The notes under the pieces are model-generated. The model made no database searches. It saw only the letters and a program-made list of their open reading frames with translations, and was not told the DNA's origin. 64,000 nt of DNA, taken from Desulfobulbus oligotrophicus (GTDB lineage: Bacteria; Desulfobacterota; Desulfobulbia; Desulfobulbales; Desulfobulbaceae). The DNA lies in contig NZ_CP054140.1 of NCBI RefSeq assembly GCF_016446285.1, forward strand, positions 1 to 64,000, read 5' to 3'. This document shows positions 41,456-58,271 of the stretch, piece after piece. The position numbers and the translations under genes are program-made. Each line of letters opens with the position of its first letter. Position 1 is the first letter of the stretch.

Positions 41456-42259
41456 TTAGGCTGCCTGTTGGACCGCCGGCAGCATCGCGGTATACGCCTC
41501 GTTAGGCGTTTTTCTCTTTATTTTGGAGTGTGGTCGACAGCGGTTGTACCAGTCGAAATAACGTATGATCGATCTGCGGGCCTCGACGACTGAGTCATAG
41601 GCATGGAGATACACTTCTTCGTACTTGACTGACTTCCACAATCGTTCCACAAACACGTTGTCCCGCCAGCCGCCCCGGCCATCCATGCTGAGCTTGCATC
41701 CGCGGTCTTTGACCGCCCGGACAAATTCCTCGGCAGTGAACTGGCTCCCCTGGTCGGTGTTAATGATCTCAGGCGTACCATGGCGGGTGAACGCCTCCTG
41801 CAGAACATCGACAGCATGGCAGGCCTCCAGGGTGATGGCGATCTTGGCCGCCAGCACTTTCCGGCTGGCCCAGTCAACCACGGCTGTGAGATAAACAAAG
41901 CCTTTGGCCATCGGGATATAGGTCGTATCCAGCGCCCAGACCTGATTGGCTCGGTCAATCCTCATCCCCCGCATGAGATAGGGATATACCTTGTGACCAA
42001 GGTGTTTCTTGCTGGTTCCCGGTTTCCGGTACAGCGCCTCGATGCCCATGCGTTTCATCAGCGTACCCACATGCCTGCGGCCAACTTTAATGCCCGCTCG
42101 ATCAACCTGATCACGCAACATGCGGGCGCCCATGAACGGGCGCTCCAGATGCAACTCGTCCAGGCGGCGCATCAACTCCAAATCGGCCTTCGCAACGGGC
42201 CTGGGACGATAATAGAGGCTGCTGCGACTGATGCCAACCAACTTGGCCTGTCTTGTCAC
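41456..42259 (-). CDS. IS3-family transposase OrfB
   Basis: The 267-aa catalytic part of the transposase. An HTH_21-type region is followed by the rve integrase domain. The DDE residues are visible in 'WALDTTYIPMAKG', 'IINTDQGSQFTAEEF' and 'DNVFVERLWKSVKYEEVY'. The frame runs upstream of the first ATG to about 42305, so the protein is probably made as an OrfAB fusion by -1 frameshifting at an A-AAG site near 42287-42293. Confidence 0.92.
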   Translation of the reverse strand: MTRQAKLVGISRSSLYYRPRPVAKADLELMRRLDELHLERPFMGARMLRDQVDRAGIKVGRRHVGTLMKRMGIEALYRKPGTSKKHLGHKVYPYLMRGMRIDRANQVWALDTTYIPMAKGFVYLTAVVDWASRKVLAAKIAITLEACHAVDVLQEAFTRHGTPEIINTDQGSQFTAEEFVRAVKDRGCKLSMDGRGGWRDNVFVERLWKSVKYEEVYLHAYDSVVEARRSIIRYFDWYNRCRPHSKIKRKTPNEAYTAMLPAVQQAA

Positions 42260-42282
42260 AGGGAGTTTGTGAGTGCGGTCAA

Positions 42283-42594
42283 TTATCGCTTTGCGCTCAG
42301 CAGTCCCACCCTGGTGAGCGCGCTTTCTAAAAAATCGTTTTCCAGCGTTAATTGCCCGATCTTGGCGTGCAGTGCCTTCAGGTCAACTTCCGGCTTAGCC
42401 GGGGATTTATCGAAAATATTTGAGGCGCCCTCGCTTAATTGTCGTTTCCAGGTGGTGATCTGGTTGGGGTGGACCTCGAACTGCTGGGCTAATTCAGCCA
42501 ATGTTTTGTCACCGGCTATCGCAGCCAAGGCCACTTTTGCTTTAAATGCTGCTGAATGTTTCCGCCTCGTTCTTTTTGCCATTTTCTGCTCCAT
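42283..42594 (-). CDS. IS3-family transposase OrfA
   Basis: A 103-aa DNA-binding protein with the HTH_Tnp_1 pattern 'RRKHSAAFKAKVALAAIAGD' and 'LAELAQQFEVHPNQITTWKRQL', ending in a leucine-zipper-like 'LHAKIGQLTLENDFLESAL'. The start at 42594 fits the family; the frame extends 14 codons further into the terminal repeat region. Its 3' end overlaps the orfB frame in the -1 register. Confidence 0.9.
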   Translation of the reverse strand: MEQKMAKRTRRKHSAAFKAKVALAAIAGDKTLAELAQQFEVHPNQITTWKRQLSEGASNIFDKSPAKPEVDLKALHAKIGQLTLENDFLESALTRVGLLSAKR

Positions 42595-42635
42595 GTTGTG
42601 CCCATCGTTGGGCGTTAGTGGTAGCAGATTTTCCA

Positions 42636-43148
42636 CTTAAGAGCTTGTCCAAATTTCCGAGACCACTTCTCAATAAAGCCATCATCATAAGCCTAAGGTA
42701 TCGCTGCATGCGCACACCTCACACCAAAAATTTTATGGTACGATAGAAACACAAATATCCTGCCCCAAACAGGCCTATCAGCACATAGAAACAGGGTATT
42801 CACACGGTTGTTGCACGATCCTGCTTATATTGTTCTTACTACAACGCAAGTGAGCCGGGAAGTCAATAACCGCTCGGTTGCGGAACATGTATAGCCAGAG
42901 GCTGAGGATCTGCCTCTTCAGCTGCTTTGAAAACACCGGAGAGGCGATGATGAACATGCAGGCTTTGTTTGCACACCCTACACACACTCAAAGATCAGGA
43001 TGACAGAACCCCTCACCCCCCGGATTCATCCTGCTGTAAACAGGAGGGGGTAAGCAATTATGCTGCTCCTCGTGCACCAACATCTTAAGGCGCAAAGAGA
43101 GGGGACGTTGAATATTGTAAAATTCGGCCCGCACGTCGTAAAAACGTC
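42636..43148. other. Gap between IS element and glycosyltransferase gene
   Basis: About 510 bases hold no convincing gene. On the minus strand a small frame starting at 42709 ('MQRYLRLMMMALLRSGLG') runs into the IS end and, with the IS removed, would stop 39 codons on, overlapping the start of the gene at 40874-41407. A CAGGATGA/TCATCCTG inverted repeat (42996-43033) and G/C-rich tracts lie near the end of the glycosyltransferase gene. The region looks like degraded sequence. Confidence 0.35.
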
Positions 43149-44255
43149 TCAATCTTGAGAAAATACACCGAATCGGCGGTATGTTTCTAAAAGAGACTGT
43201 ACCATTGTTTTGGTACCATAGTGGTCTGCTACAGCTTGATGCTGTTTTTCCATTCGCTCAGGATCGCGGCGAGGTAACCTGGCAAGATCTTGCAGAGCCT
43301 GGCCAGCAGCCGTCACATCATTATAGTCCACCAGTCGGTAATCCTCAATAAAACCAAGAGTCTCGACCGTTGATAACAGACGGCAGGCCAATACCGGAAG
43401 ACCGTTGAGAAGGCTTTGAATAAGCGACTGAGAGACACCCTCAGCTTCGTAGGAAGAAAAAAAGAAGAGATCAAAAGCGCTGAAATAGTGCTCGGGTTGT
43501 TCCTGGTGTCCTGCAAAAATCACCCGATCACCTACTCCCAATTCGTTGGCGAGCGCCTTAAGCCCCAGGAGTTCTTCACCATCACCGACCAGCATGAAGC
43601 GAAAATGAGCGGGCATTACCGCTGCAGTCCGTATAACAAATGCCAGACCTTTATAATGGCGGAAAAAGGCGACATTCCCCACGAGAATATCTGGGTCGGC
43701 AATGTTGTAGGCTTGTCGAATCGATTCACGGTGCTGTCGGGAAAAACGAAAGCGCGCCTCATCGTTGCCGGTTGAAAGAACGATTAGCTTGTCGCGCGAA
43801 ATACCTTTCAGGGCCAACTGGTCAGCAATCGCTGCACTGCACGTAAAAACTATATGAGGAAAAAATTTATAGCTGAACGTTGAGGAAACTGGTGCCAAGA
43901 CGTGTCGTGTACGGATAATGAGCGGGATGCAGCAAAAACGAGCAATAACCCCCACCATCCAGGAGTCTTCCGACGAATGGGTATTGATGACCGCTGGTTT
44001 AAGAGCCCGGATAAGTATGATCAGATCCCACCAGGATCCGGGATTGAATTTGGCAAATTTTTTAATGGGATACACAGCTATATTCTCAACGCCGGCGCGC
44101 CATGCCAACTCACTTTCCTGAGGAACGATCAAGCCAACACGAAAGCCGTGCTTACGCAACTCTTTGAGCTCCGTAAGAACTCGGATTTCCTGACCTCCCC
44201 ACGAACGGCTCCAGTCGGTATGAATAACCAATGGATGTTGTTCTATTGAGTGCAT
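43149..44255 (-). CDS. Glycosyltransferase family 4 (GT-B)
   Basis: A 368-aa GT-B enzyme. The N-terminal acceptor domain begins 'IHTDWSRSWGGQEIRVL', with a GGQE loop typical of GT4 enzymes. The C-terminal donor domain has 'FRHYKGLAFVIRTA', 'MLVGDGEELLGLKALA', and the acidic 'FFFSSYEAEGVSQSLIQSLLNGLPVLA', which matches the EX7E region. The start at 44255 is chosen over 44282 because the first nine codons have no family match. Probable role is lipopolysaccharide core or surface polysaccharide synthesis; substrate unknown. It is isolated between an IS element and the Lap cluster. Confidence 0.88.
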   Translation of the reverse strand: MHSIEQHPLVIHTDWSRSWGGQEIRVLTELKELRKHGFRVGLIVPQESELAWRAGVENIAVYPIKKFAKFNPGSWWDLIILIRALKPAVINTHSSEDSWMVGVIARFCCIPLIIRTRHVLAPVSSTFSYKFFPHIVFTCSAAIADQLALKGISRDKLIVLSTGNDEARFRFSRQHRESIRQAYNIADPDILVGNVAFFRHYKGLAFVIRTAAVMPAHFRFMLVGDGEELLGLKALANELGVGDRVIFAGHQEQPEHYFSAFDLFFFSSYEAEGVSQSLIQSLLNGLPVLACRLLSTVETLGFIEDYRLVDYNDVTAAGQALQDLARLPRRDPERMEKQHQAVADHYGTKTMVQSLLETYRRFGVFSQD

Positions 44256-44282
44256 ATTTTCAAATTCAGTCCTTTTGCACAC

Positions 44283-45020: not shown

Positions 45021-46348
45021 ATGAGATTACGGCAATACTGTGCAGTTTGTGCATTCGCGGCTTTAGGAAGTTTCGGCACAAGCATGTTTGCAGGAGCGGA
45101 AACACTCCAGGATGCTGTACAGAAAATGATCAGCAGCAACCCTGACATCCGTGCTGTAGCCCACAACCGTCTGGCGCGGGATGAAGAGGTTCGACAGGCC
45201 CGTTCCGGTTATTTCCCCACGCTCAATGTTGAAGCCGGCGCCGGTAAAGACTGGGTCGAAAAACCGTATGACCGAGAGCTCAGCCCTCGGGAGGCTCGCA
45301 TAAGTCTTCGTCAGAATCTTTTTGCCGGCCTCTCGACAATGAATGAAGTCGAACGTCAAAAGGCTCGAGTTGAATCCGAAGCGTATGTGGTGCGCAGTAC
45401 CGCTGACAATACCGCATTAAAAGCAGCCAATGTATACCTGGAGGTTCTTAAAAATCAGGCTATTGTCGAGCTGGCTCAAGAAAATCTGACCTTGCACCAA
45501 CGTATCTCAGATCAGATCAGACTCAGAAGCGAGTCAGGTGTTGACCGTCTGGCCGACATGGATCAGGTACAGAGCCGTTTGAACCTTGCCCAAGCCAACC
45601 TGGTGGTGACGGAACAGAACCTGCTCGATGCACAAACCAATTACAACGCGGTCGTCGGTAACCTGCCGATGCAGCTGACCCGTCCGGAACCCCCTGCAAC
45701 CCTGTTACCTCCAAGCCGGGATGAGGCGGAAAACCTTGCTGTTGCCAACCATCCCCAACTTAAATCAGCGCTTGCCGACCTGGAGGCACGCCGCAAACAG
45801 GACGAAGTCGCAAAAAGCCCCTTCATGCCTATCATTGACCTGGAAGCCGACCAGATTTGGCAGAAAGATACCTACAACACCTCACTGGACGAAGATCAGG
45901 AACGTGAAGATCTCCGCGTTGTTCTTCGCCTCCGCTACAATCTGTTCAATGGCTGGAAAGACGAGGCCAGAAAGACTGAAACCACACCCATCGCCAGGTC
46001 ATCGAATCAACGAGACTTTCATGGCAAGCTCATGAGGCAGCTAAAAAGAAGACCGACTATCTCCAGCAACGTCTTCAATTTGCGACCAAAACAGCCAGTG
46101 CCTACACAAAGCAGTGGAATATCGGACAACGCACCCTGCTTGATGTTCTTGACGCTGAGGCTGAGCGGATAGACTCTGCCCGTCAGCTGGTCACAGCCGA
46201 CTACGACGGCCTGTATGCCCAGTATCGGATTCTCAATGCCACCGGCCGGTTGATCCCTGCTTTAAAGCTGCAATGGCCTGACGAAGGTTTGATCAACGAA
46301 GACTCCGCTCAAGAACAGCCGCAGGCCACTGCCGGCGACCAATCCTGA
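45021..46348 (+). pseudogene. TolC-family outer-membrane channel (LapE-like), frameshifted
   Basis: The start at 45021 has an AAAGGAG Shine-Dalgarno and a signal peptide ('MRLRQYCAVCAFAALGSFG...FAGA'). TolC-type helical repeats follow: 'SSNPDIRAVAHNRLARDEEV', 'ARSGYFPTLNVEAGAG', 'SGVDRLADMDQVQSRLNLAQ'. The frame is correct to 'YNLFNGWKDEARKTETT' (about 45985), then shifts; the remainder ('HRQVIESTRLSWQAHEAAKK' to 'NATGRLIPALKLQWPDEG') is in another frame and ends at 46348. In related channels about 13 residues normally lie at the break, so a deletion of about 40 nt is likely. As read, the first frame stops at 46172. It should be the outer-membrane pore for the LapB/LapC exporter. Confidence 0.85.
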
Positions 46349-46504
46349 CACTCTGCCGTTTGCTGCCCCTTGCCTTTCTCTCATCCCCGTTCGTGACGAC
46401 ATGGACGGGGATGTTTACCGCAGCCCCATCCGGCCCGGATACGTTATCCTGACCATTCAGTCCTTACCGGCACCATGGGTGTTGCACACACCACTTTGCT
46501 GACC

Positions 46505-47176
46505 ATGAAGCCATCGGTCATATCAGCTGCCAGACCTCTCTTCAGCCTCCTTTTTCTGATCCTGATTGTCCTGGTCCCACCGGTGCTGACCGATGAATCT
46601 TTTTTCATTCCAGAACAGACTTTACAGCGCATGGAACAACAGTTCGGCAAAGAAGCCAGAACCCGGCTGCTTGCATGGCAGCACCTCATCCGGACCACTG
46701 TCGACAGTGAGCAAACCAAGCTTGAGCGTGTGAACCGGTTTATGAATACAAACGCCTTCATTGCTGACACCGACCACTGGCAACAAGAGGATTACTGGGC
46801 AACACCCATTGAATTCATTGCCAGCCGAGGAGGAGACTGTGAAGATTTTGCCATCGCTAAATTTTTCACCTTACTGAAAATGGGGGTTGATGAACACCGT
46901 CTTGCCCTCACCTATGTCAAGGCAGTTCATCTCAATCAGGCTCACATGGTCTTAACCTATTACCCTGTTCCGGGGGCGGAGCCATTGGTTTTAGATAACC
47001 TGATCGACGCGATCAAACCCTCTTCCCAGCGTACCGATCTTGTACCGGTGTACAGTCTGAATGGTTCAGGTCTTTGGCTTGCCAAACAGCGCGGTAAAGG
47101 AAAACAGATCGGCAATAATAATCGACTCAAGCGGTGGCGAGAACTCCTGGACCGCATCTCGTCTGAAACACCATAA
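46505..47176 (+). CDS. lapG: LapG-type periplasmic transglutaminase-like cysteine protease
   Basis: A protein of about 223 aa of the bacterial transglutaminase-like cysteine proteinase family. A signal peptide/anchor ('SLLFLILIVLVPPVLT') precedes the domain. The catalytic triad is visible as Cys in 'SRGGDCEDFAIAKFF', His in 'LNQAHMVLTYY' and Asp in 'LVLDNLIDAI'. LapG proteins cut the N-terminus of LapA-type adhesins after a diAla site and need calcium. The gene is followed 13 bp later by lapD, its known inhibitor. ATG 46475 is an alternative start. No strong Shine-Dalgarno is seen for either. Confidence 0.92.
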   Translation: MKPSVISAARPLFSLLFLILIVLVPPVLTDESFFIPEQTLQRMEQQFGKEARTRLLAWQHLIRTTVDSEQTKLERVNRFMNTNAFIADTDHWQQEDYWATPIEFIASRGGDCEDFAIAKFFTLLKMGVDEHRLALTYVKAVHLNQAHMVLTYYPVPGAEPLVLDNLIDAIKPSSQRTDLVPVYSLNGSGLWLAKQRGKGKQIGNNNRLKRWRELLDRISSETP

Positions 47177-47189
47177 AATGAGGATTCGT

Positions 47190-49148
47190 ATGACCCTCTA
47201 CCGTCAACTGCTGTTCTTTGGTCTATCCACCATAATCCTGCTATGTGTCGGATTATGGGTAGGGGAATTGCAACGAACCAGACAGTTTCTGATCACTCAA
47301 CTCGAATCACACGCTCAAGACACTGCCTCTTCCCTTGGCCTGTCTTTAAGTAGCCTGGCCCACGGGACAGATGCAGCTGTCATGGAATCTATGATCAACG
47401 CCATCTTTGATCGAGGATACTATCGAACCATACAGTTTAAAGATGTTCAAGGCACGGTTCTCTTTGATCGCCAGTCCACTGTCTCCATTGAGCGTGTACC
47501 CGCCTGGTTTATCCGGGCCACTCCGTTATCAATTCCCAGTGCCCAGGCAATGGTCATGAACGGTTGGAAGCAGACCGGTACGGTGACGGTACAAAGTCAT
47601 CCTGGGTACGCCTACTACACCTTATGGCAGGCAGTACAGTCAGCTTCTCTGTGGTTCGCTATCACTGCTGCAATAGTTATCGTGGCTGGTCTGCTTAGAA
47701 TACGCCGACTCCTTGCGCCACTGGCACAGGTTGAAGAACAGGCGCTTGCACTGTGTGAGCGACGCTTTCACATCCAGGAAAGACTTCCCAGAACCCAGGA
47801 ATTGCGCCGCGTGGTAAAGGCCATGAACCAGATGACAGAGCAGGTTCGGGAGATGTTTGAAGAGCAGGCAGCCCTGGCTGACTCACTCCAGCAGCGTGTC
47901 TATCAGGATCCGTTGACAGGTCTGGGCAATCGACGATTTCTCGAGGCACAGGTCAAAGCCAAGGTTGCGGCAAAGGAGACACCTGTCAACGGTACCTTCC
48001 TCCTGTTCCAGATCCAGGAACTGCAAGGCATCAACCAGCAGCTGGGCTACACAATCGGTGACCAGCTGATCAGCGAGCTGGCCTCCGATTTACAAAAAAC
48101 TGCCGTAGAGCAGGCTGAAGCCATTGTCGGCCGCCTCGGAGGGCCAGACCTGGCCCTTCTTCTACCTAACATGGATGCGGCCATGGCCACCGAGCTTGCT
48201 GAAACCCGACTCAAGAGTCTTGATTTTATCAAAACCACCTCGTCTTCAGTACCTTCCATCACAGTTGTCTGCGGTGGTGTGACCTACAGTCGACCAACAA
48301 GTTTCAACGAACTCCTCATCCATGCCGACACTGCCCTGAATACAGCCCGGCAGGAGGGTGCCCCCGGCTCCACAGTCATCTTTCCCCTTGATGATGCAGC
48401 GACTGTTGCTGTTGGCAAGACCGAGTGGAAACACCTGCTGGACACGGTGTTGGCAAATCGTTCTCTGGTCCTGTACGGACAGCCCACAGTCAGCAAGAGT
48501 GACAAGGACACAATCATCCATCACGAAATTTTAAGCCGCATCCCCCACAGTGACGGTCGACACATTTCCGCCGGTACCTTTTTGCCCATGGCCGAACAGC
48601 TCGGACTGATGCCGACCCTTGATCGTCTTATCCTGGAGAATGTCATTGCCTTGCCGCCTTCTCGATTGGTTCCGCCCCGCGTGGCAATCAATCTGTCACC
48701 CATCTCCCTGAAAAACGAACTCTTTGTCGACTGGCTGTTTCCGCAGCTGTCCCAATGCGCTGCTGCAGGCCTGCTCCTCAACTTTGAATTTTCCGAATTC
48801 CGAGCCATCCGGCACTTCAATATCATCAAAACCTTTGCAGACCGGATCAAACCCATGGGCCATGGCGTTGGTATCGATCATTTCGGCCAGGGCCTCACCC
48901 ATTACGGCTACCTCAAATCACTGCTGCCCAACTATGTGAAGATCCACCGGGCAATCACCAACGACATGCACAACGATCAGGACGACACCTCGTTCTTTGT
49001 CAGCACACTGTGTACCATAGCCCACAGTCTGGATATTCGGGTGATTATCGAAGGGGTGGAAACCGAACAGCAATGGCAGACTGTCACGGCCCTGCCGATA
49101 GATGCAGTTCAGGGTTATTTTATCCGTCGGCCGGAACCGGTACTGTAG
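47190..49148 (+). CDS. lapD: LapD-type c-di-GMP receptor with degenerate GGDEF and EAL domains
   Basis: A 652-aa inner-membrane protein. The N-terminus 'MTLYRQLLFFGLSTIILLCVG' starts TM1; a periplasmic LapD_MoxY_N domain spans about 27-150; TM2 is about 152-172, followed by HAMP. The GGDEF domain has 'GRLGGPDLALLLP' (GGPDL near residue 315), and the EAL position reads 'HHEILSRI' (near 445). Both look catalytically dead, as in known LapD, which binds c-di-GMP at the EAL domain and sequesters LapG in the periplasm. The start at 47190 has GAGG at proper spacing. Confidence 0.93.
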   Translation: MTLYRQLLFFGLSTIILLCVGLWVGELQRTRQFLITQLESHAQDTASSLGLSLSSLAHGTDAAVMESMINAIFDRGYYRTIQFKDVQGTVLFDRQSTVSIERVPAWFIRATPLSIPSAQAMVMNGWKQTGTVTVQSHPGYAYYTLWQAVQSASLWFAITAAIVIVAGLLRIRRLLAPLAQVEEQALALCERRFHIQERLPRTQELRRVVKAMNQMTEQVREMFEEQAALADSLQQRVYQDPLTGLGNRRFLEAQVKAKVAAKETPVNGTFLLFQIQELQGINQQLGYTIGDQLISELASDLQKTAVEQAEAIVGRLGGPDLALLLPNMDAAMATELAETRLKSLDFIKTTSSSVPSITVVCGGVTYSRPTSFNELLIHADTALNTARQEGAPGSTVIFPLDDAATVAVGKTEWKHLLDTVLANRSLVLYGQPTVSKSDKDTIIHHEILSRIPHSDGRHISAGTFLPMAEQLGLMPTLDRLILENVIALPPSRLVPPRVAINLSPISLKNELFVDWLFPQLSQCAAAGLLLNFEFSEFRAIRHFNIIKTFADRIKPMGHGVGIDHFGQGLTHYGYLKSLLPNYVKIHRAITNDMHNDQDDTSFFVSTLCTIAHSLDIRVIIEGVETEQQWQTVTALPIDAVQGYFIRRPEPVL

Positions 49149-49163
49149 AACAGACAAGGTCTT

Positions 49164-49493
49164 TTAGATAATGTCGTCGACCACGAGATGGTGGTCTGAC
49201 ATCTTGGCGCGTAACTGTTTACGGTTGAGAATTTTTTCCTGTGCTTCAGATGGCAACTCTGTGAACAGAATGACCTTTTTGGCGATCAACAGATCAATCA
49301 GATCTTCGACAACCCGTACCATGGAGGCATCTGAGGCTGCCAGAAGATGTGAAAACGATTCAAAATCGTCAATAGTCCTAAGAAAAGAGAGGATCTCGGC
49401 ATCGAGCAGGGAAACCGGTTCTTTTCCAGCCCCGGACTCACCCTTTCGCAGGGCGACAATGTTTCCTGTCTCATCACGTTCTACAAACAACAT
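49164..49493 (-). CDS. Small conserved protein of the Lap cluster
   Basis: A 109-aa acidic protein beginning 'MLFVERDETGNIVALRKGE', followed by helical 'LDAEILSFLRTIDDF' and 'VVEDLIDLLIAKKVILFTELPSEAQEKIL'. Similar small proteins are often misannotated as tryptophan synthase beta-like in proteobacteria, and some sit near type I secretion/lap genes. I cannot give a function. It is convergent with lapD (15-bp gap) and divergent from lapB, so lapB-lapC must have its own promoter in the 100-bp gap at 49494-49592. ATG 49574 would be a longer start. Confidence 0.7.
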   Translation of the reverse strand: MLFVERDETGNIVALRKGESGAGKEPVSLLDAEILSFLRTIDDFESFSHLLAASDASMVRVVEDLIDLLIAKKVILFTELPSEAQEKILNRKQLRAKMSDHHLVVDDII

Positions 49494-49592
49494 CGGCAGC
49501 TCCGCTGAATTCCTTGTCACGATTGAATTTCTTGTGATACAACGATCATAGCATAGAAATTGTTTCGTCGACAACTACCTGTATCAACAAAC

Positions 49593-51764
49593 ATGACAGA
49601 CACCGCTCAATCGATACCCGCCAAAGAATGGATCGATGCATCTGGTTCAGATACCGGGGACGACCCGCTGACCGACTGCCTGCTCCAACTCGGCAAGTTC
49701 TACAATCTGCCGGTTTCCCGGACCGGCCTGTGCGCCGGGTTACCGCTGGTGGACAACCGGTTAACCGTGGAACTGTTCCCCCGAGCCGCTGACCGTGCAG
49801 GTTTAACGACCCGGCTGCTCAAACGACCACTGACAAAGATATCCAGCCTGGAACTCCCGGCGGTTCTTCTTCTTGAGGGGAAAAAGGCGTGCCTGCTGAC
49901 CGCCGTTGACCACAGTCAGCAACAGGCTACCGTTCTTTTACCGGAAACCGGGTTTGGTGCAACACAGCTGCCCCTGTCGGAACTGACCGCTTTGTTCAGT
50001 GGATTTGTCTTCTTTGCCCGTCCCAGGTTCCGACAGGATCATCAACTTGATCACCAAGCCCGGAGGACTGAAAAAAACTGGTTCTGGGGTGTCCTGTTCT
50101 CTTCGTGGCGGATATACCGTGATGTACTGCTGGCATCGTTGCTGATCAATATCTTTGCCCTGACCACACCGTTTTTTACGATGAACGTGTACGATCGGGT
50201 TATCCCCAACCTGGCCTTTGAAACACTGTGGGTGCTTGCCATTGGTATGGGGTTTGTCTACTTATTTAATCTGCTGCTAAAAGGCCTGCGCGGGCACTTT
50301 GTCGATGAAGCCGGCAAAAAGGCCAATCTGCGCATCTCCGGAGCACTTTTGGAAAAAGTCCTGGGCCTCAGGCTTGAAGTTCGACCTAAATCAGTGGGTG
50401 GGTTTTCTAAAAAACTACAGCAATTTGAAGCGATTCGAGATTTCATCACCTCCTTTTCCATCACCGCTCTGATCGATCTTCCCTTCATGTTCCTGGGACT
50501 TGCCGCCATCTGGTATCTTGGCGGACCGATCGTCTGGATTCATCTGAGCGCCGTCATTCTGATGGCGCTGTTTGCCTACGCTGTCCAGGCACCGCTCAAA
50601 CGGGCGGTGGAGCATTCATTCCAGGCATCAGCGCAAAAAAATGCCATCCTGGTGGAAGGACTGGCCGGCATCGAGACAATCAAGATGCTTGGTGCAGAAA
50701 GTCAGATTCAACGGGGCTGGGAGGAGGCAGTCAGCTACATTGCCACCTGGAGCAGTCGGTCTCGCCTCTTCTCTTCCGCGGTTACCCATTTCTGCGAATT
50801 TGTCATGAACGTTACCACCGTGGCGACAATTATTGCCGGTGTGTACCGGATATCCACAGGTGACCTGACCCAAGGGGGAATCATCGCTCTTTTGATCCTT
50901 TCCCGACAGGCCATTGCTCCGATGTTCCAGGTGGTGAACCTTGCAACCCGGTATCACCAGGCCAAAACAGCTCTCGGTGAGCTGGACGCCATTATGGCAC
51001 TGCCGGTCGAACGTCCCCTGGACCGAAACTTCCTTCTTCGCGGTACCTGCCAGGGAAAGATAGCCTTTGAACAGGTGGATTTTCAGTACCCCGAACAAAA
51101 AGGTCTGGCGTTAAACAATGTTTCACTCACCATAGAGTCTGGTGAACGGGTGGCGATCATCGGTCCCATCGGTTCAGGCAAAACCACCCTGGGCAAACTA
51201 CTGCTTGGCATGTATGCACCCACCGCCGGCATTGTTGCCCTTGATGACACCGACATTCGCCAGATCGATCCAGCGGAACTCCGCCGGTTCATCGGGTATG
51301 TTCCACAGGATATCACGCTGTTCCGCGGCACCATTCGCGATAATATACGTCTTGGTTCGCCGGAAGTGGAAGATGCCGTGCTGCTCAAAGCAGCCGAACT
51401 TTCCGGAGTTGCCGAGTTTGTCGGCAAGCATGCCATGGGCTTTGATCTGGAAATCGGTGAACAGGGACGCGGCCTTTCAGGTGGCCAACGCCAGAGTGTT
51501 GCTATTGCCAGAGCCCTATTACACGATCCGCCCATCCTTATCTTAGATGAACCGAGCAGCTCCATGGATAACCGGACGGAAACCCGGCTCAAACAGAACC
51601 TTATGCAGTTCCTTCCCGGAAAAACCCTCATTCTCATTACGCATCGTGCTTCACTGCTTGATCTGGTTGATCGCATCGTTCTCATCGACAACGCCATGGT
51701 GGTGGCAGATGGACCAAGAGACCAGGTCTTGACTGCCATCAGAAGCGGCCAGGTACAGCTGTAG
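49593..51764 (+). CDS. lapB: Type I secretion ABC transporter (LapB-type permease/ATPase)
   Basis: A 723-aa ABC exporter. The N-terminal ~150 residues form a C39-like domain without the peptidase Cys, as in RTX exporters. A six-helix membrane domain follows ('LASLLINIFALTTPFFTMNVYDRVIPN' read in parts). The ATPase domain has Walker A 'IGPIGSGKTTLGKLL' near residue 523, 'LSGGQRQS' near 627 and 'ILILDEPSSSMD'. It starts the lapB-lapC-luxR operon. Its natural substrate is almost certainly the adhesin at 53922-58271. Confidence 0.94.
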   Translation: MTDTAQSIPAKEWIDASGSDTGDDPLTDCLLQLGKFYNLPVSRTGLCAGLPLVDNRLTVELFPRAADRAGLTTRLLKRPLTKISSLELPAVLLLEGKKACLLTAVDHSQQQATVLLPETGFGATQLPLSELTALFSGFVFFARPRFRQDHQLDHQARRTEKNWFWGVLFSSWRIYRDVLLASLLINIFALTTPFFTMNVYDRVIPNLAFETLWVLAIGMGFVYLFNLLLKGLRGHFVDEAGKKANLRISGALLEKVLGLRLEVRPKSVGGFSKKLQQFEAIRDFITSFSITALIDLPFMFLGLAAIWYLGGPIVWIHLSAVILMALFAYAVQAPLKRAVEHSFQASAQKNAILVEGLAGIETIKMLGAESQIQRGWEEAVSYIATWSSRSRLFSSAVTHFCEFVMNVTTVATIIAGVYRISTGDLTQGGIIALLILSRQAIAPMFQVVNLATRYHQAKTALGELDAIMALPVERPLDRNFLLRGTCQGKIAFEQVDFQYPEQKGLALNNVSLTIESGERVAIIGPIGSGKTTLGKLLLGMYAPTAGIVALDDTDIRQIDPAELRRFIGYVPQDITLFRGTIRDNIRLGSPEVEDAVLLKAAELSGVAEFVGKHAMGFDLEIGEQGRGLSGGQRQSVAIARALLHDPPILILDEPSSSMDNRTETRLKQNLMQFLPGKTLILITHRASLLDLVDRIVLIDNAMVVADGPRDQVLTAIRSGQVQL

Positions 51765-51773
51765 ACAGACATC

Positions 51774-53153
51774 ATGAACAAACAACCAACACCTCCAGCC
51801 AACGATCGGTCTGCAGCTCCCCAGGGACTTTTTCGAAGACTGCCGTCACCAGACCTTGACCTGGTCACTGATATCCGAACCACACTGTTGCTTCAGGACC
51901 CCCGTGGCGGTCGCCTGATCGTCTGGCTGGTCGGCCTTTTTATTCTGTGTTTCCTTGTCTGGTCGGCATGGGCTGAGATAGACGAGGTAACCCGCGGCGA
52001 TGGCAAGGTTATCCCCTCTCAGCAGATACAGGTTGTTCAGAACCTTGAAGGCGGCATCCTTGCCAAACTGCTGGTGCAGGTCGGTGACGTGGTTGACAAA
52101 GACCAGCTGTTACTTGAAATCGACAAAACCAGATTCTCGGCGCCATATCAGGAAAGCCGGGCCAGCTACCTGGCACTGAAGGCACAGATCGCTCGTCTGG
52201 AGGCGGAAACCCATGACAAACCATTTAATGTCCCGGAGGAGGTGAGTAAAGAAAAGCCGGAAATCGGCCTACGGGAACAAAAACTCTACACCTCCAGAAA
52301 AGAACAGCTGACAGCCAAACTACAGATCCTCCAGGAGCAACACACTCAACGTAAACAGGAACTGGCAGAGCTCCGCTCAAAATTAGGAGAGTTGCGTCGA
52401 ACCTCCGGGCTGCTCCAACGGGAACTGGCCATGACCAAGCCACTGATTGCCCAGGGAGCGGTCTCTGAGGTTGAAGTACTACGCTTACAACGTCAACACA
52501 GCGAGATGAGCGGCGCCATCGAGACCACCAGAATTGCCATTCCCAAGGTTGAGTCGAAGATTGCCGAGGCAAAAAAAGCCATGGAAAGCGAACAACTCGC
52601 CTTTCATAACGCTGCTCGCAGCGAGCTGAACGAGGCGTATGCCAAGCTGGAAGGTGTCAGTGCCAATGCCGAGGCCCTGATGGACCGGCTTCAGCGTACC
52701 GCGGTCCGTTCGCCGGTACGGGGATCCATCAATCAGATCAAAGTCAATACCATCGGTGGTACCATTCAACCGGGAATGGATCTGATCGAGATCGTTCCCC
52801 TTGAGGATACGTTACTTGTTGAGGCCCGAATCAAACCGGCTGACATCGCCTTTCTTCATCCCAACCAACCGGCCATCATCAAATTCACTGCCTACGACTT
52901 CACCACCTATGGCGGACTGGAGGCAGATTTAGAGCACATCAGTGCCGACTCCATCACCGACAAGGAGGGAAACGATTTCTATCTGATCCGTCTCCGCACC
53001 AAACAGAACTTCCTGGGCAGCAAGGACAAGCCACTCCCCATTATTCCGGGCATGGTCGCTTCAGTCGATATTCTCACCGGCAAAAAAACCATTCTTTCGT
53101 ACCTGCTCAAGCCTGTTCTGCGGGCCAAGGCTACAGCACTTCGGGAGCGATGA
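51774..53153 (+). CDS. lapC: HlyD-family type I secretion membrane fusion protein (LapC-type)
   Basis: A 459-aa adaptor linking the ABC transporter to the outer-membrane channel. It has one membrane helix near residues 46-66 ('LIVWLVGLFILCFLVWSAWA'), a biotinyl-lipoyl-like hairpin start ('VVQNLEGGILAKLLVQVGD'), a long coiled coil over about residues 130-290, and the C-terminal beta-barrel ('IKPADIAFLHPNQPAIIKF'). It begins 9 bp after lapB and is followed after 1 bp by the regulator gene. Confidence 0.94.
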   Translation: MNKQPTPPANDRSAAPQGLFRRLPSPDLDLVTDIRTTLLLQDPRGGRLIVWLVGLFILCFLVWSAWAEIDEVTRGDGKVIPSQQIQVVQNLEGGILAKLLVQVGDVVDKDQLLLEIDKTRFSAPYQESRASYLALKAQIARLEAETHDKPFNVPEEVSKEKPEIGLREQKLYTSRKEQLTAKLQILQEQHTQRKQELAELRSKLGELRRTSGLLQRELAMTKPLIAQGAVSEVEVLRLQRQHSEMSGAIETTRIAIPKVESKIAEAKKAMESEQLAFHNAARSELNEAYAKLEGVSANAEALMDRLQRTAVRSPVRGSINQIKVNTIGGTIQPGMDLIEIVPLEDTLLVEARIKPADIAFLHPNQPAIIKFTAYDFTTYGGLEADLEHISADSITDKEGNDFYLIRLRTKQNFLGSKDKPLPIIPGMVASVDILTGKKTILSYLLKPVLRAKATALRER

Positions 53154-53154
53154 G

Positions 53155-53805
53155 ATGAACCTGATCCTCTGTTGCAGCAATCCTCGCCTTCGTGAACGGT
53201 GGTTCACTGCTCTGAACCGCATGTTCTCCACCTACCAGGCCACCACGCTGGAAGACCTGCGTATTTTTGTTCAGCAACAGATCACCTTCGGTCTTTTGCT
53301 CATTCACCGTCCTTTAATCGACTTCGCAGCGGTAACCTACATCAAAAGACGTCAACCTAACTGTAAACTCGTCATTCTTTCGGACCGACCGAGCGAAACA
53401 GAGGGGTTGGCCCTTCTCAGGCTTGGCGTGATCGGGTACGCCAACAGTTATACCAACCCCCAGCGACTGCAGGATGCCATACGTTCCATAGTCGATGGTT
53501 CAGTATGGATCAGTCAGGATCTCATGTATCGATTGATCACCCAATCGGCACCATCCGTCAGCTCCACATTCCAAACACAGGCTATCCGTACTCCTCAACT
53601 CAACAACCTTTCCGACCGGGAACTGCAGATTGCCGATTTAGTGTCTCAAGGGCTCAGCAACGGTGAAATTGCTGTTCAGCTCGGTATTACTGAACGCACG
53701 GTCAAAGCCCACCTCGGTGCTGTGTATGCCAAGACCTCCACCAAAGGACGCCTGGCCCTGGCACTGCTGATGCGTCAGGCAGCGTCTGCCTCCAATAACG
53801 GATGA
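53155..53805 (+). CDS. LuxR-family regulator with a degenerate receiver domain
   Basis: A 216-aa protein. The N-terminal half has the receiver fold ('MNLILCCSNPRLRERWFTAL'), but the phospho-acceptor position reads 'GLLLIHRPL' (H51 in place of Asp). The C-terminal LuxR/GerE HTH is clear: 'LSDRELQIADLVSQGLSNGE' and 'AVQLGITERTVKAHLGAVY'. The overall plan recalls CsgD/VpsT-type biofilm regulators with atypical receivers. It shares an operon with lapB-lapC and probably regulates the adhesin or its exporter. A bidirectional terminator follows. Confidence 0.85.
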   Translation: MNLILCCSNPRLRERWFTALNRMFSTYQATTLEDLRIFVQQQITFGLLLIHRPLIDFAAVTYIKRRQPNCKLVILSDRPSETEGLALLRLGVIGYANSYTNPQRLQDAIRSIVDGSVWISQDLMYRLITQSAPSVSSTFQTQAIRTPQLNNLSDRELQIADLVSQGLSNGEIAVQLGITERTVKAHLGAVYAKTSTKGRLALALLMRQAASASNNG

Positions 53806-53921: not shown

Positions 53922-56900
53922 TTATTGCGTAGATCCCAGATCTATCTGGCCCAACAGTGAGTTGAGCTGATCACCGGTATCAAGTGAACTGAAATCAATG
54001 GTGTCAAAGGTAACACTACCAATCACATTCGAATGATCAGCATCATCATAGAGCAGTAACTGGGCCTTACCATCGTTGTCGGCAACCCCGAGTCGGGAAT
54101 GATCATCCTCATCACTGCCGATCACCTGACTGATATCCACTCGATCCCCCTCGGCCCGGCTGTAATCCAGAATGGTATCATGGCCATCACCGACCATGAA
54201 GATATCGGCGCCGCCACCACCTATAAGGACCTCGTCTCCACTGCCGCCGGCCAGTGTGTTGTCGGCTTCCGTACCGATGATAAAGGTCTTGGTGTCGGTT
54301 AAGCCGCCACCTGCACTGTCCTCAATGGTCACGATGACTGAAATATCCGGGGTTGCTCCTGTTGTACCGGGAACCGTCATTTCCAGACCTTCGATTGTTA
54401 CCGCATTGGTGACCGGATCAATGGCGACCGTATAGCTGCCGTCGCTCTCCAGCGGCAGTGTCCAGGTCCCATCAGGATTGAGCGTTCCTGCAGAAAGAAC
54501 CGCTCCTTCAGGGACCGACAGGGCCACACTGACAATGGTCTCTGAAAAATCGGTGTCTCCTGTCTCCACGACCAGATTGATCGGATAGAGCGTGTCCGTG
54601 GGGAAACTGATGTCGTGGATCAAAAAGTCGTTGTCTCCTCCATCAGTTGGTGCAGTAAAGACAATAGAGTGGATGAGAGCTCCATCTGCTCCCTGCAGTG
54701 TAAACGGTGGATCAATCTCATCGGTTATGCCCTGGACTATTCCACCGCCGATCTGATTACCATCAATATCGTACAGCACATACTCTGCCCGCTCAACAGA
54801 GGCAAGCCAGGCAAACCGAACCGTTGCTTCGGAAACAGGGCTATCAAAGATGACTTCAATCTTTTCGGAAGTGTGACCATCTTGGCCAAGTTCTATGAAA
54901 TCTCCGGAGGCATCGCCCGGCACACCGAAACCAGTTGGTGCGTCATACACTCCTTCTGCGGTGGCAACACCAATCTCATTGCCATCAAGATCATACGCTT
55001 TGACTGTGAACCCCAGGTCCGTACTGGTCACATTTGCGGCATTGATCACCGTATTCACCATTGCCGGATTCTGAGGGGTGATGGTCACCTTCGGAATATC
55101 CACAACCGGTGTTACGGTAATATTCAGTGTTGATGTTTCGCTGCCGATGCCATCGGTCACTGTATAGGTTACCTGAGGCACCTGACCGCTATAATCAGGA
55201 TGCGGTGTAAACAGGTAGTCGCCGTTTTCATGTATCACCAATTGCCCCACACCACTGATCTCTACCGTGTCTCCAGGCAGGTAGGTGGTGGAATCGTCGG
55301 CAACAGTGAAACCGCTAATTGTAACCTCACCGGTCATGTTCGTGGCGTTGTCCAGGACATTACCCGCCAACGGCGCATCTTCCTGCGTTGAGACATGCTC
55401 GTCACCATCAACGATGTCATCATCAATGATCGTGGCTGTGGCTGAGTCACTGTACGTGGTCCCGTTACTCGTCAGCACCGCGTTCAGGGTGAACGTCTCA
55501 TTCGGCTCGTCAATGGTGTCGTCAACCGTGGGTGTCCGAACCTGCACAACACTGTCACCGGCTGGAAGCGGGATACCACCGGTGTACTCATTCCAGGTTG
55601 TACCACCGTCAAGGCTGTACTCAAAACCACCGGATGCATAGTCATCAGGGCTCACAGCCGTGCCATCGGCAAACGTCAGCTCAAGTGTGCTCCCCTCACC
55701 AACACCCGTTACATGGATGTCGAATACTGCCGGATCACCCTCTGGAACCTCGATATCACCGGTACCGGTCCCAGCACCACCAACAGAGATGGTCGGCACA
55801 TCATTATCAATGATCGTGGCTGTGGCTGAGTCACTGTACGTGGTCCCGTTACTCGTCAGCACCGCGTTCAGGGTGAACGTCTCATTCGGCTCGTCAATGG
55901 TGTCGTCAACCGTGGGTGTCCGAACCTGCACAACACTGTCACCGGCTGGAAGCGGAATACCACCGGTGTACTCATTCCAGGTCGTACCACCGTCAAGGCT
56001 GTACTCAAAACCACCGGATGCATAGTCATCAGGGCTCACAGCCGTGCCATCGGCAAACGTCAGCTCAAGTGTGCTCCCCTCACCAACACCCGTTACATGG
56101 ATGTCGAATACTGCCGGATCACCCTCTGGAACCTCGATATCACCGGTACCGGTCCCAGCACCACCAACAGAGATGGTCGGCACATCATTATCAATGATCG
56201 TGGCCGTGGCTGAGTCACTGTACGTGGTCCCGTTACTCGTCAGCACTGCGTTCAGGGTGAACGTCTCATTCGGCTCGTCAATGGTGTCGTCAACCGTGGG
56301 TGTCCGAACCTGCACAACACTGTCACCGGCTGGAAGCGGAATACCACCGGTGTACTCATTCCAGGTCGTACCACCGTCAAGGCTGTACTCAAAACCACCG
56401 GATGCATAGTCATCAGGGCTCACAGCCGTGCCATCGGCAAACGTCAGCTCAAGTGTGCTCCCCTCACCAACACCCGTTACATGGATGTCGAATACTGCCG
56501 GATCACCCTCTGGAACCTCGATATCACCGGTACCGGTCCCAGCACCACCAACAGAGATGGTCGGCACATCATTATCAATGATCGTGGCCGTGGCTGAGTC
56601 ACTGTACGTGGTCCCGTTACTCGTCAGCACCGCGTTCAGGGTGAACGTCTCATTCGGCTCGTCAATGGTGTCGTCAACCGTGGGTGTCCGAACCTGCACA
56701 ACACTGTCACCGGCTGGAAGCGGAATACCACCGGTGTACTCATTCCAGGTCGTACCACCGTCAAGGCTGTACTCAAAACCACCAGATGCATAGTCATCAG
56801 GACTCACAGCCGTGCCATCGGCAAACGTCAGCTCAAGTGTGCTCCCCTCACCAACACCCGTTACATGGATGTCGAATACTGCCGGATCACCCTCTGGAAC

Positions 56901-58271
56901 CTCGATATCACCGGTACCGGTCCCAGCACCACCAACAGAGATGGTCGGCACATCATTATCAATGATCGTGGCCGTGGCTGAGTCACTGTACGTGGTCCCG
57001 TTACTCGTCAGCACCGCGTTCAGGGTGAACGTCTCATTCGGCTCGTCAATGGTGTCGTCAACCGTGGGTGTCCGAACCTGCACAACACTGTCACCGGCTG
57101 GAAGCGGAATACCACCGGTGTACTCATTCCAGGTCGTACCACCGTCAAGGCTGTACTCAAAACCACCAGATGCATAGTCATCAGGACTCACAGCCGTGCC
57201 ATCGGCAAACGTCAGCTCAAGTGTGCTCCCCTCACCAACACCCGTTACATGGATGTCGAATACTGCCGGATCACCCTCTGGAACCTCGATATCACCGGTA
57301 CCGGTCCCAGCACCACCAACAGAGATGGTCGGCACATCATTATCAATGATCGTGGCCGTGGCTGAGTCACTGTACGTGGTCCCGTTACTCGTCAGCACTG
57401 CGTTCAGGGTGAACGTCTCATTCGGCTCGTCAATGGTGTCGTCAACCGTGGGTGTCCGAACCTGCACAACACTGTCACCGGCTGGAAGCGGAATACCACC
57501 GGTGTACTCATTCCAGGTCGTACCACCGTCAAGGCTGTACTCAAAACCACCGGATGCATAGTCATCAGGGCTCACAGCCGTGCCATCGGCAAACGTCAGC
57601 TCAAGTGTGCTCCCCTCGCCAACACCCGTTACATGGATGTCGAATACCGCCGGATCACCCTCATTGACGGCAATACTGTCCATCGACACAGTTGGCGGAG
57701 ATACAGGCGGGGGAACAGGTATATCGGTCTCCCCGTCAACAGGAGGCGCAGGAGGTGTCTCGGTTCCATCATCAATACCGGCAAAGACCCAGTAGGGCGG
57801 ATCTAAAAAATCCCAGCCAATGCCCCGTGTTTCAGCACCGGAATCAGGTATCATCTCCATCTGGGTTGCTTCAAAAACAACAATCTGCCGGCCACCGCCT
57901 CCTGCTCCGGCAACACCGGTACCGGCAGCAGGAGGTGGCAGATCCGTGGTGGGATCAAAGTTTTCATCCTGTTGCAGGGCCTGTTGCATATCTGCAACCG
58001 AGGCCGAAAAATCACCGGCATCCCCGGGTGCTGCCGCTCCGTACACTTCTTCATCAACGAGGACATCGGACATGCGCCCGAGCATCATTGCATTGGGAGT
58101 ATTGGTAAAGGTGATGGAAACACTGCCATCTGAACCTGTTACTATTCGATCATCAGCGTAGATAACGCTGTTGGGAGTCAGTACCCGCTCAAAACCATTT
58201 GCTGAAACCGCCTTAACTGTTCCATACACGATAACGGCTTTCCCGACCGTTTGTGCCTTTCCAACTGCCAT
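53922..58271 (-). CDS. LapA-like RTX adhesin with N-terminal retention module
   Basis: A 1449-aa secreted adhesin. Residues 1 to about 110 form a LapA-type retention module ('AVIVYGTVKAVSANGFERVL', 'DRIVTGSDGSVSITF'). 'DPTTDLPPPAAGTGVAGAGG' follows, with P114-A115-A116-G117 as a candidate LapG cleavage site. After a Pro-rich linker come six 128-aa Calx-beta-like repeats (about 202-949), then a VCBS/cadherin-like domain, an unassigned beta-rich module, and a C-terminal RTX element ('GGSGDEVLIGGGGADIF') with the type I secretion target domain ending at 1449. It is transcribed toward lapB-lapC-luxR. The total length is small next to Pseudomonas LapA, but the repeat number could be collapsed in assembly. 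Confidence 0.93.
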   Translation of the reverse strand: MAVGKAQTVGKAVIVYGTVKAVSANGFERVLTPNSVIYADDRIVTGSDGSVSITFTNTPNAMMLGRMSDVLVDEEVYGAAAPGDAGDFSASVADMQQALQQDENFDPTTDLPPPAAGTGVAGAGGGGRQIVVFEATQMEMIPDSGAETRGIGWDFLDPPYWVFAGIDDGTETPPAPPVDGETDIPVPPPVSPPTVSMDSIAVNEGDPAVFDIHVTGVGEGSTLELTFADGTAVSPDDYASGGFEYSLDGGTTWNEYTGGIPLPAGDSVVQVRTPTVDDTIDEPNETFTLNAVLTSNGTTYSDSATATIIDNDVPTISVGGAGTGTGDIEVPEGDPAVFDIHVTGVGEGSTLELTFADGTAVSPDDYASGGFEYSLDGGTTWNEYTGGIPLPAGDSVVQVRTPTVDDTIDEPNETFTLNAVLTSNGTTYSDSATATIIDNDVPTISVGGAGTGTGDIEVPEGDPAVFDIHVTGVGEGSTLELTFADGTAVSPDDYASGGFEYSLDGGTTWNEYTGGIPLPAGDSVVQVRTPTVDDTIDEPNETFTLNAVLTSNGTTYSDSATATIIDNDVPTISVGGAGTGTGDIEVPEGDPAVFDIHVTGVGEGSTLELTFADGTAVSPDDYASGGFEYSLDGGTTWNEYTGGIPLPAGDSVVQVRTPTVDDTIDEPNETFTLNAVLTSNGTTYSDSATATIIDNDVPTISVGGAGTGTGDIEVPEGDPAVFDIHVTGVGEGSTLELTFADGTAVSPDDYASGGFEYSLDGGTTWNEYTGGIPLPAGDSVVQVRTPTVDDTIDEPNETFTLNAVLTSNGTTYSDSATATIIDNDVPTISVGGAGTGTGDIEVPEGDPAVFDIHVTGVGEGSTLELTFADGTAVSPDDYASGGFEYSLDGGTTWNEYTGGIPLPAGDSVVQVRTPTVDDTIDEPNETFTLNAVLTSNGTTYSDSATATIIDDDIVDGDEHVSTQEDAPLAGNVLDNATNMTGEVTISGFTVADDSTTYLPGDTVEISGVGQLVIHENGDYLFTPHPDYSGQVPQVTYTVTDGIGSETSTLNITVTPVVDIPKVTITPQNPAMVNTVINAANVTSTDLGFTVKAYDLDGNEIGVATAEGVYDAPTGFGVPGDASGDFIELGQDGHTSEKIEVIFDSPVSEATVRFAWLASVERAEYVLYDIDGNQIGGGIVQGITDEIDPPFTLQGADGALIHSIVFTAPTDGGDNDFLIHDISFPTDTLYPINLVVETGDTDFSETIVSVALSVPEGAVLSAGTLNPDGTWTLPLESDGSYTVAIDPVTNAVTIEGLEMTVPGTTGATPDISVIVTIEDSAGGGLTDTKTFIIGTEADNTLAGGSGDEVLIGGGGADIFMVGDGHDTILDYSRAEGDRVDISQVIGSDEDDHSRLGVADNDGKAQLLLYDDADHSNVIGSVTFDTIDFSSLDTGDQLNSLLGQIDLGSTQ
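55422..57665 (-). repeat. Six near-identical 384-bp tandem repeats in the adhesin gene
   Basis: Units begin at about 55423, 55807, 56191, 56575, 56959 and 57343, each 384 bp (128 codons); the last is shorter where it joins the linker. The encoded repeats look identical. The base differences I found are all synonymous, for example CACCGCG/CACTGCG and CCGGATGC/CCAGATGC. The units at 56575 and 56959 match at every position I compared, pointing to recent duplication or gene conversion. Confidence 0.95.

Follow-up and report, generated by a model that had tools for sequence, protein, structure and literature searches.

A 37-nt deletion breaks the LapE-type channel gene in the Lap locus of Desulfobulbus oligotrophicus Prop6

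In Pseudomonas fluorescens, the adhesin LapA stays anchored in the TolC-like protein LapE (PMC6890996), and mutation of lapE impairs the formation of biofilms (PMC8277102). The Dvh operon of the sulfate reducer Desulfovibrio vulgaris likewise encodes a Lap-like adhesin system with protease and receptor (PMC13090378). In D. vulgaris Hildenborough, the adhesin type I secretion system (T1SS) transporter is DVU1017, and one nucleotide change in this gene abolished biofilm formation in a laboratory line (PMC5646257). We analysed the first 64,000 nt of the D. oligotrophicus Prop6 genome, a single contig of 3,102,012 nt. This stretch is referred to as the window, and coordinates are those of the window unless marked as genome positions. 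It contains a comparable locus, in which the gene for the outer-membrane channel is broken.

As in P. fluorescens, lapE, lapG, lapD, lapB and lapC are grouped together with a lapA-like adhesin gene. The locus thus has the composition of a Lap-type system, a LapB/LapC/LapE T1SS beside LapG and LapD, although lapE is broken. The plus strand carries, downstream of lapE, intact genes for the periplasmic cysteine protease LapG (46475..47176; NF045674 5.1e-69, Peptidase_C93 3.5e-15) and the c-di-GMP receptor LapD (47061..49148; NF045673 1.1e-143, with LapD_MoxY_N, GGDEF and EAL domains). Since both NCBIfam matches lie under the curated cut-offs, the Prop6 proteins are distant homologues of LapG and LapD. 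The lapD open reading frame overlaps lapG, so that the true lapD start is probably near 47190. The domain organisation of DvhD differs from that of the Desulfobulbus LapD, which is canonical (LapD_MoxY_N-GGDEF-EAL) (PMC13090378). Further downstream on the plus strand follow intact genes for the type I secretion permease/ATPase LapB (49560..51764; TIGR03375, 922 bits, above the cut-off) and the HlyD-type adaptor LapC (51774..53153; TIGR01843, 421 bits), the sole adaptor of this type above the family cut-off in the genome. A LuxR-like regulator frame, named from its sequence (53155..53805, plus strand), adjoins lapC in relatives as well. The intact lapA-like gene on the minus strand (53922..58271; 1449 aa; Pfam Calx-beta and HemolysinCabind) encodes an N-terminal retention-like region, in which a PAAG motif near residue 114 is a candidate LapG site, as well as Calx-beta repeats and an RTX C-terminus. 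The gene contains a tandem array of 5.8 copies of a 384-nt repeat with 99% identity (55417-57662), whose copy number could vary easily. Synteny of the Lap genes is kept in relatives. Between lapD and lapB, a minus-strand frame (49164-49574) without a Pfam match is found at the same position in five relatives with 50-81% identity. Upstream of lapE, a glycosyltransferase gene (43149-44282) was unmatched at the corresponding loci of the relatives compared, the contig of the closest relative ending before this point. About 2.4 kb upstream of lapE lies an IS3-type element with two transposase frames (41456-42640). It has a 100% identical copy at genome positions 317187-318371 and a near-identical, apparently split one at 488871-491552, which argues that the element is active now or was so recently.

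The Prop6 LapE-like protein belongs, like LapE of P. fluorescens, to the OEP/TolC family, but it is truncated. Its reading frame starts with ATG at 45021, downstream of an AAAGGAG sequence, and remains native through the codon at 45981-45983. This intact part (45021..45983, plus strand; 321 codons) matches TIGR01844, the type I secretion TolC subfamily, with 2.2e-64 and Pfam OEP with 1.2e-39. Although truncated, it reaches 218 bits against a TIGR01844 cut-off of 225 bits set for the whole protein. Translation then continues out of frame for 62 non-native residues (45984..46172) to a TAG at 46170-46172. The native C-terminal part is displaced into a second frame, which opens past a TGA at 45977 and ends with the TGA at 46346-46348. 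Homology in this frame begins at about 45980, and the displaced part proper (45986..46348, plus strand; 120 codons plus stop; Pfam OEP 4e-8) has no in-frame access from the start codon. It aligns with residues 320-407 of E. coli TolC. Matches to OEP/TolC profiles stop at about 45971-45977 in the one frame and restart at 45965-45968 in the other. The first of the two OEP repeats is complete and the second is divided between two frames, while lapE orthologues carry both repeats in a single frame. Translation, profile matches and alignment to the orthologue thus bear out the original prediction that a normal TolC-like frame shifts and resumes elsewhere up to 46348.

The closest lapE orthologue (454 aa) is found in a metagenome-assembled genome of Desulfobulbus sp. 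(G016; record JAAYDD010000315.1). The N-terminal and displaced parts of Prop6 LapE share 90% and 83% amino acid identity, respectively, with this intact protein. Pairwise alignment revealed that Prop6 lapE lacks exactly 37 nt, or 12 codons plus one base, at the junction. The loss itself was therefore correctly predicted, but its size had been put at about 40 nt, or about 13 residues plus one base. In G016, two copies of GAAACC with starts 37 nt apart bound the extra bases. Prop6 retains a single copy at the junction (45978-45983, plus strand), so that the repeat stands at both ends in the longer allele and once in the deleted one, as would be expected if short direct repeats were involved. The ancestral repeat is deduced from G016, a relative near dS = 1 (synonymous divergence). 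Enumeration of random frame-breaking deletions of 10-200 nt in the G016 gene showed that junction homology of at least 6 bp is expected in about 0.1% of cases. Slipped mispairing between short direct repeats deletes one copy together with the intervening DNA, and both the 37-nt gap and the rarity of such junction homology fit this process. The lapE case resembles known deletions of this kind, with a 6-bp repeat of which one copy and the DNA between were lost, and has nothing unusual about it. LapE orthologues with 47-90% identity were detected in 18 of 55 other genomes searched, all open across the matched part. Desulfobulbus elongatus DSM 2908 is among the organisms with an intact lapE. In relatives from the genus and the family, the gene is unbroken wherever the junction is covered, and the C-terminal part is open too. 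The break is not a chance feature, because the gene of the relatives is continuous at this site. All these results support the view that the deletion is real, does not stem from a homopolymer and affects a TolC gene dedicated to the Lap system.

Both parts of lapE look as constrained as the neighbouring genes. Compared with G016, dN/dS was 0.051 for the N-terminal and 0.107 for the C-terminal part, within the range of the neighbours (0.05-0.17), among them lapG (0.117), lapD (0.112), lapB (0.066) and lapC (0.049). At sites of the N- and C-terminal parts that are invariant in outgroups, two plus two changes fell on the Prop6 branch and four plus two on the sister branch, so that no excess of amino acid changes was seen in lapE on the Prop6 branch. 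With this level of constraint in both halves and open frames in all other genes of the locus, the lesion appears isolated and is probably recent.

We infer from these sequence comparisons that replication slippage, or RecA-independent annealing, between the two 6-bp GAAACC copies removed one repeat and the 31 nt between them. The lapE frame is lost past codon 321 of about 454, and the predicted product of 383 aa, the final 62 residues of which are non-native, would contain only the first half of OEP repeat two. The missing half corresponds to the part of TolC that holds the periplasmic tunnel helices H7/H8 and the gate of the tunnel, and a functional LapE trimer is not expected without it. The genome encodes one ABC transporter closely of the LapB type, and no type I secretion system other than Lap was detected in Prop6. 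This sole detected T1SS thus lacks its cognate outer-membrane channel. Export and anchoring of the LapA-like adhesin should therefore fail unless another channel substitutes, display of the adhesin has probably stopped, and LapG and LapD would be left without a substrate. Overall, the lapE lesion of the sequenced Prop6 culture is very likely a loss-of-function deletion that arose recently, cannot be reversed and should stop adhesin export.

Several other explanations were weighed against this reading. The deletion is read from the assembled genome, and one alternative is an artefact of assembly or sequencing. However, the genome of D. oligotrophicus Prop6T (DSM 103420, CP054140.1) was assembled from PacBio Sequel data (public reads SRX9754829) with HGAP4 at 1,236-fold coverage and QV 93 (PMC7862947), which in effect supplies, at the assembly level, the long-read check that had been proposed. 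A 37-nt, non-homopolymer assembly error in lapE is very unlikely at this depth. Furthermore, when the window was screened for frame breaks against five relatives, lapE was flagged repeatedly. We judged the remaining flags to be antisense or shadow frames next to genes that are intact, and lapE to be the only truly broken gene in the window. Window genes in synteny with relatives have open frames. Genome-wide homology searches yielded dozens of ABC, OEP and HlyD matches without a second break of this sort, and the other matches were overwhelmingly open. We therefore regard an artefact as highly improbable. The original prediction had also considered an on/off phase event, and programmed frameshifting is another conceivable way of keeping the gene usable. 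The first and the displaced frame are indeed both open between 45980 and 46170. Both ideas were rejected: the deletion took away 12 codons of unique DNA, no close lapE paralogue that could act as a donor was found by a LapE search of the Prop6 genome, a single repeat copy is left, and orthologues are continuous at the site. Neither a repeat tract nor an inversion nor a donor copy marks lapE as phase-variable, and a reversible switch is excluded in practice by the loss of unique DNA without a close paralogue. That frameshifting or phase variation rescues the gene is hardly credible.

More weight attaches to another TolC-family protein that might serve LapBC, which would count against loss of display. 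The search for a second tolC gene suggested by the original prediction revealed eight OEP proteins besides LapE. Seven have HlyD-family matches no more than about 5 kb away, a position compatible with roles in efflux systems of their own. The eighth is an orphan of 474 aa (genome positions 1026716-1028140), encoded by an open frame downstream of cydAB-like genes, with no HlyD adaptor match nearby. It is kept in most of the genus, scores highest against TIGR01844 among the intact proteins of the genome, and is the only obvious, if distant, substitute. Its 155 bits fall under the 225-bit cut-off, however, and it is absent from the LapE hits of the genome. The biofilm defect of P. fluorescens lapE mutants (PMC8277102) also speaks against substitution. 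A close lapC orthologue (at least 61% identity) occurs in 18 other genomes, and 15 of these also have a lapE orthologue, which argues, though not conclusively, for a dedicated channel. The other three (G017, G022 and G029) were discarded as substitution cases, their contigs being cut or fragmented at the locus. Six Desulfobulbus genomes with lapG-lapD and no close lapE orthologue (G001, G004, G010, G011, G015 and G020) were likewise uninformative as a natural test, since they have no lapB and lapC at those loci and are silent on substitution. That the deletion is real and the orphan nevertheless replaces LapE, so that the adhesin is still displayed, seems unlikely, and we are similarly doubtful, if anything slightly more so, that the Lap transporter still works through this non-cognate channel. 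If it did, adhesin anchoring would need no dedicated LapE. A separate question is where the deletion arose. One possibility, compatible with loss of function, is that it became fixed while Prop6 was grown in the laboratory or purified from single colonies, and that the wild population is intact. Prop6 is a DSMZ isolate (PMC7862947), the low dN/dS and the otherwise intact locus imply youth, and the mutated adhesin exporter of the cultured D. vulgaris line (PMC5646257) makes such a loss plausible. On the other hand, a young natural loss would look identical. No second isolate of D. oligotrophicus was found, and plasmid records gave no match. We give a laboratory origin an even chance.

Other arrangements of these genes occur in the genus. 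In six Desulfobulbus genomes (loci L085-L091), lapG adjoins lapD with no lapB, lapC or lapE at that locus, and LapG and LapD may act on a different type of substrate in these genomes. In two near-complete Desulfobulbus genomes (G005, locus L094, and G013), lapE is retained although close orthologues of lapC and lapG are absent, a pattern suggesting that LapE can work with other partners.

The DVU1017 case likewise concerns a sulfate reducer, one cultured line of which suffered damage to its Lap-like adhesin T1SS. The cause in D. vulgaris, proven by genetics, was a substitution affecting the ABC transporter, whereas the Prop6 lesion is a deletion in the outer-membrane channel gene with a predicted effect. 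The lesion in Prop6 lapE is an ordinary loss-of-function mutation. After D. vulgaris, Prop6 may be the second cultured sulfate reducer in which the adhesin exporter was lost. For users of the type strain in studies of attachment, biofilm or corrosion, it means that the sequenced culture is probably unable to export its LapA-like adhesin.
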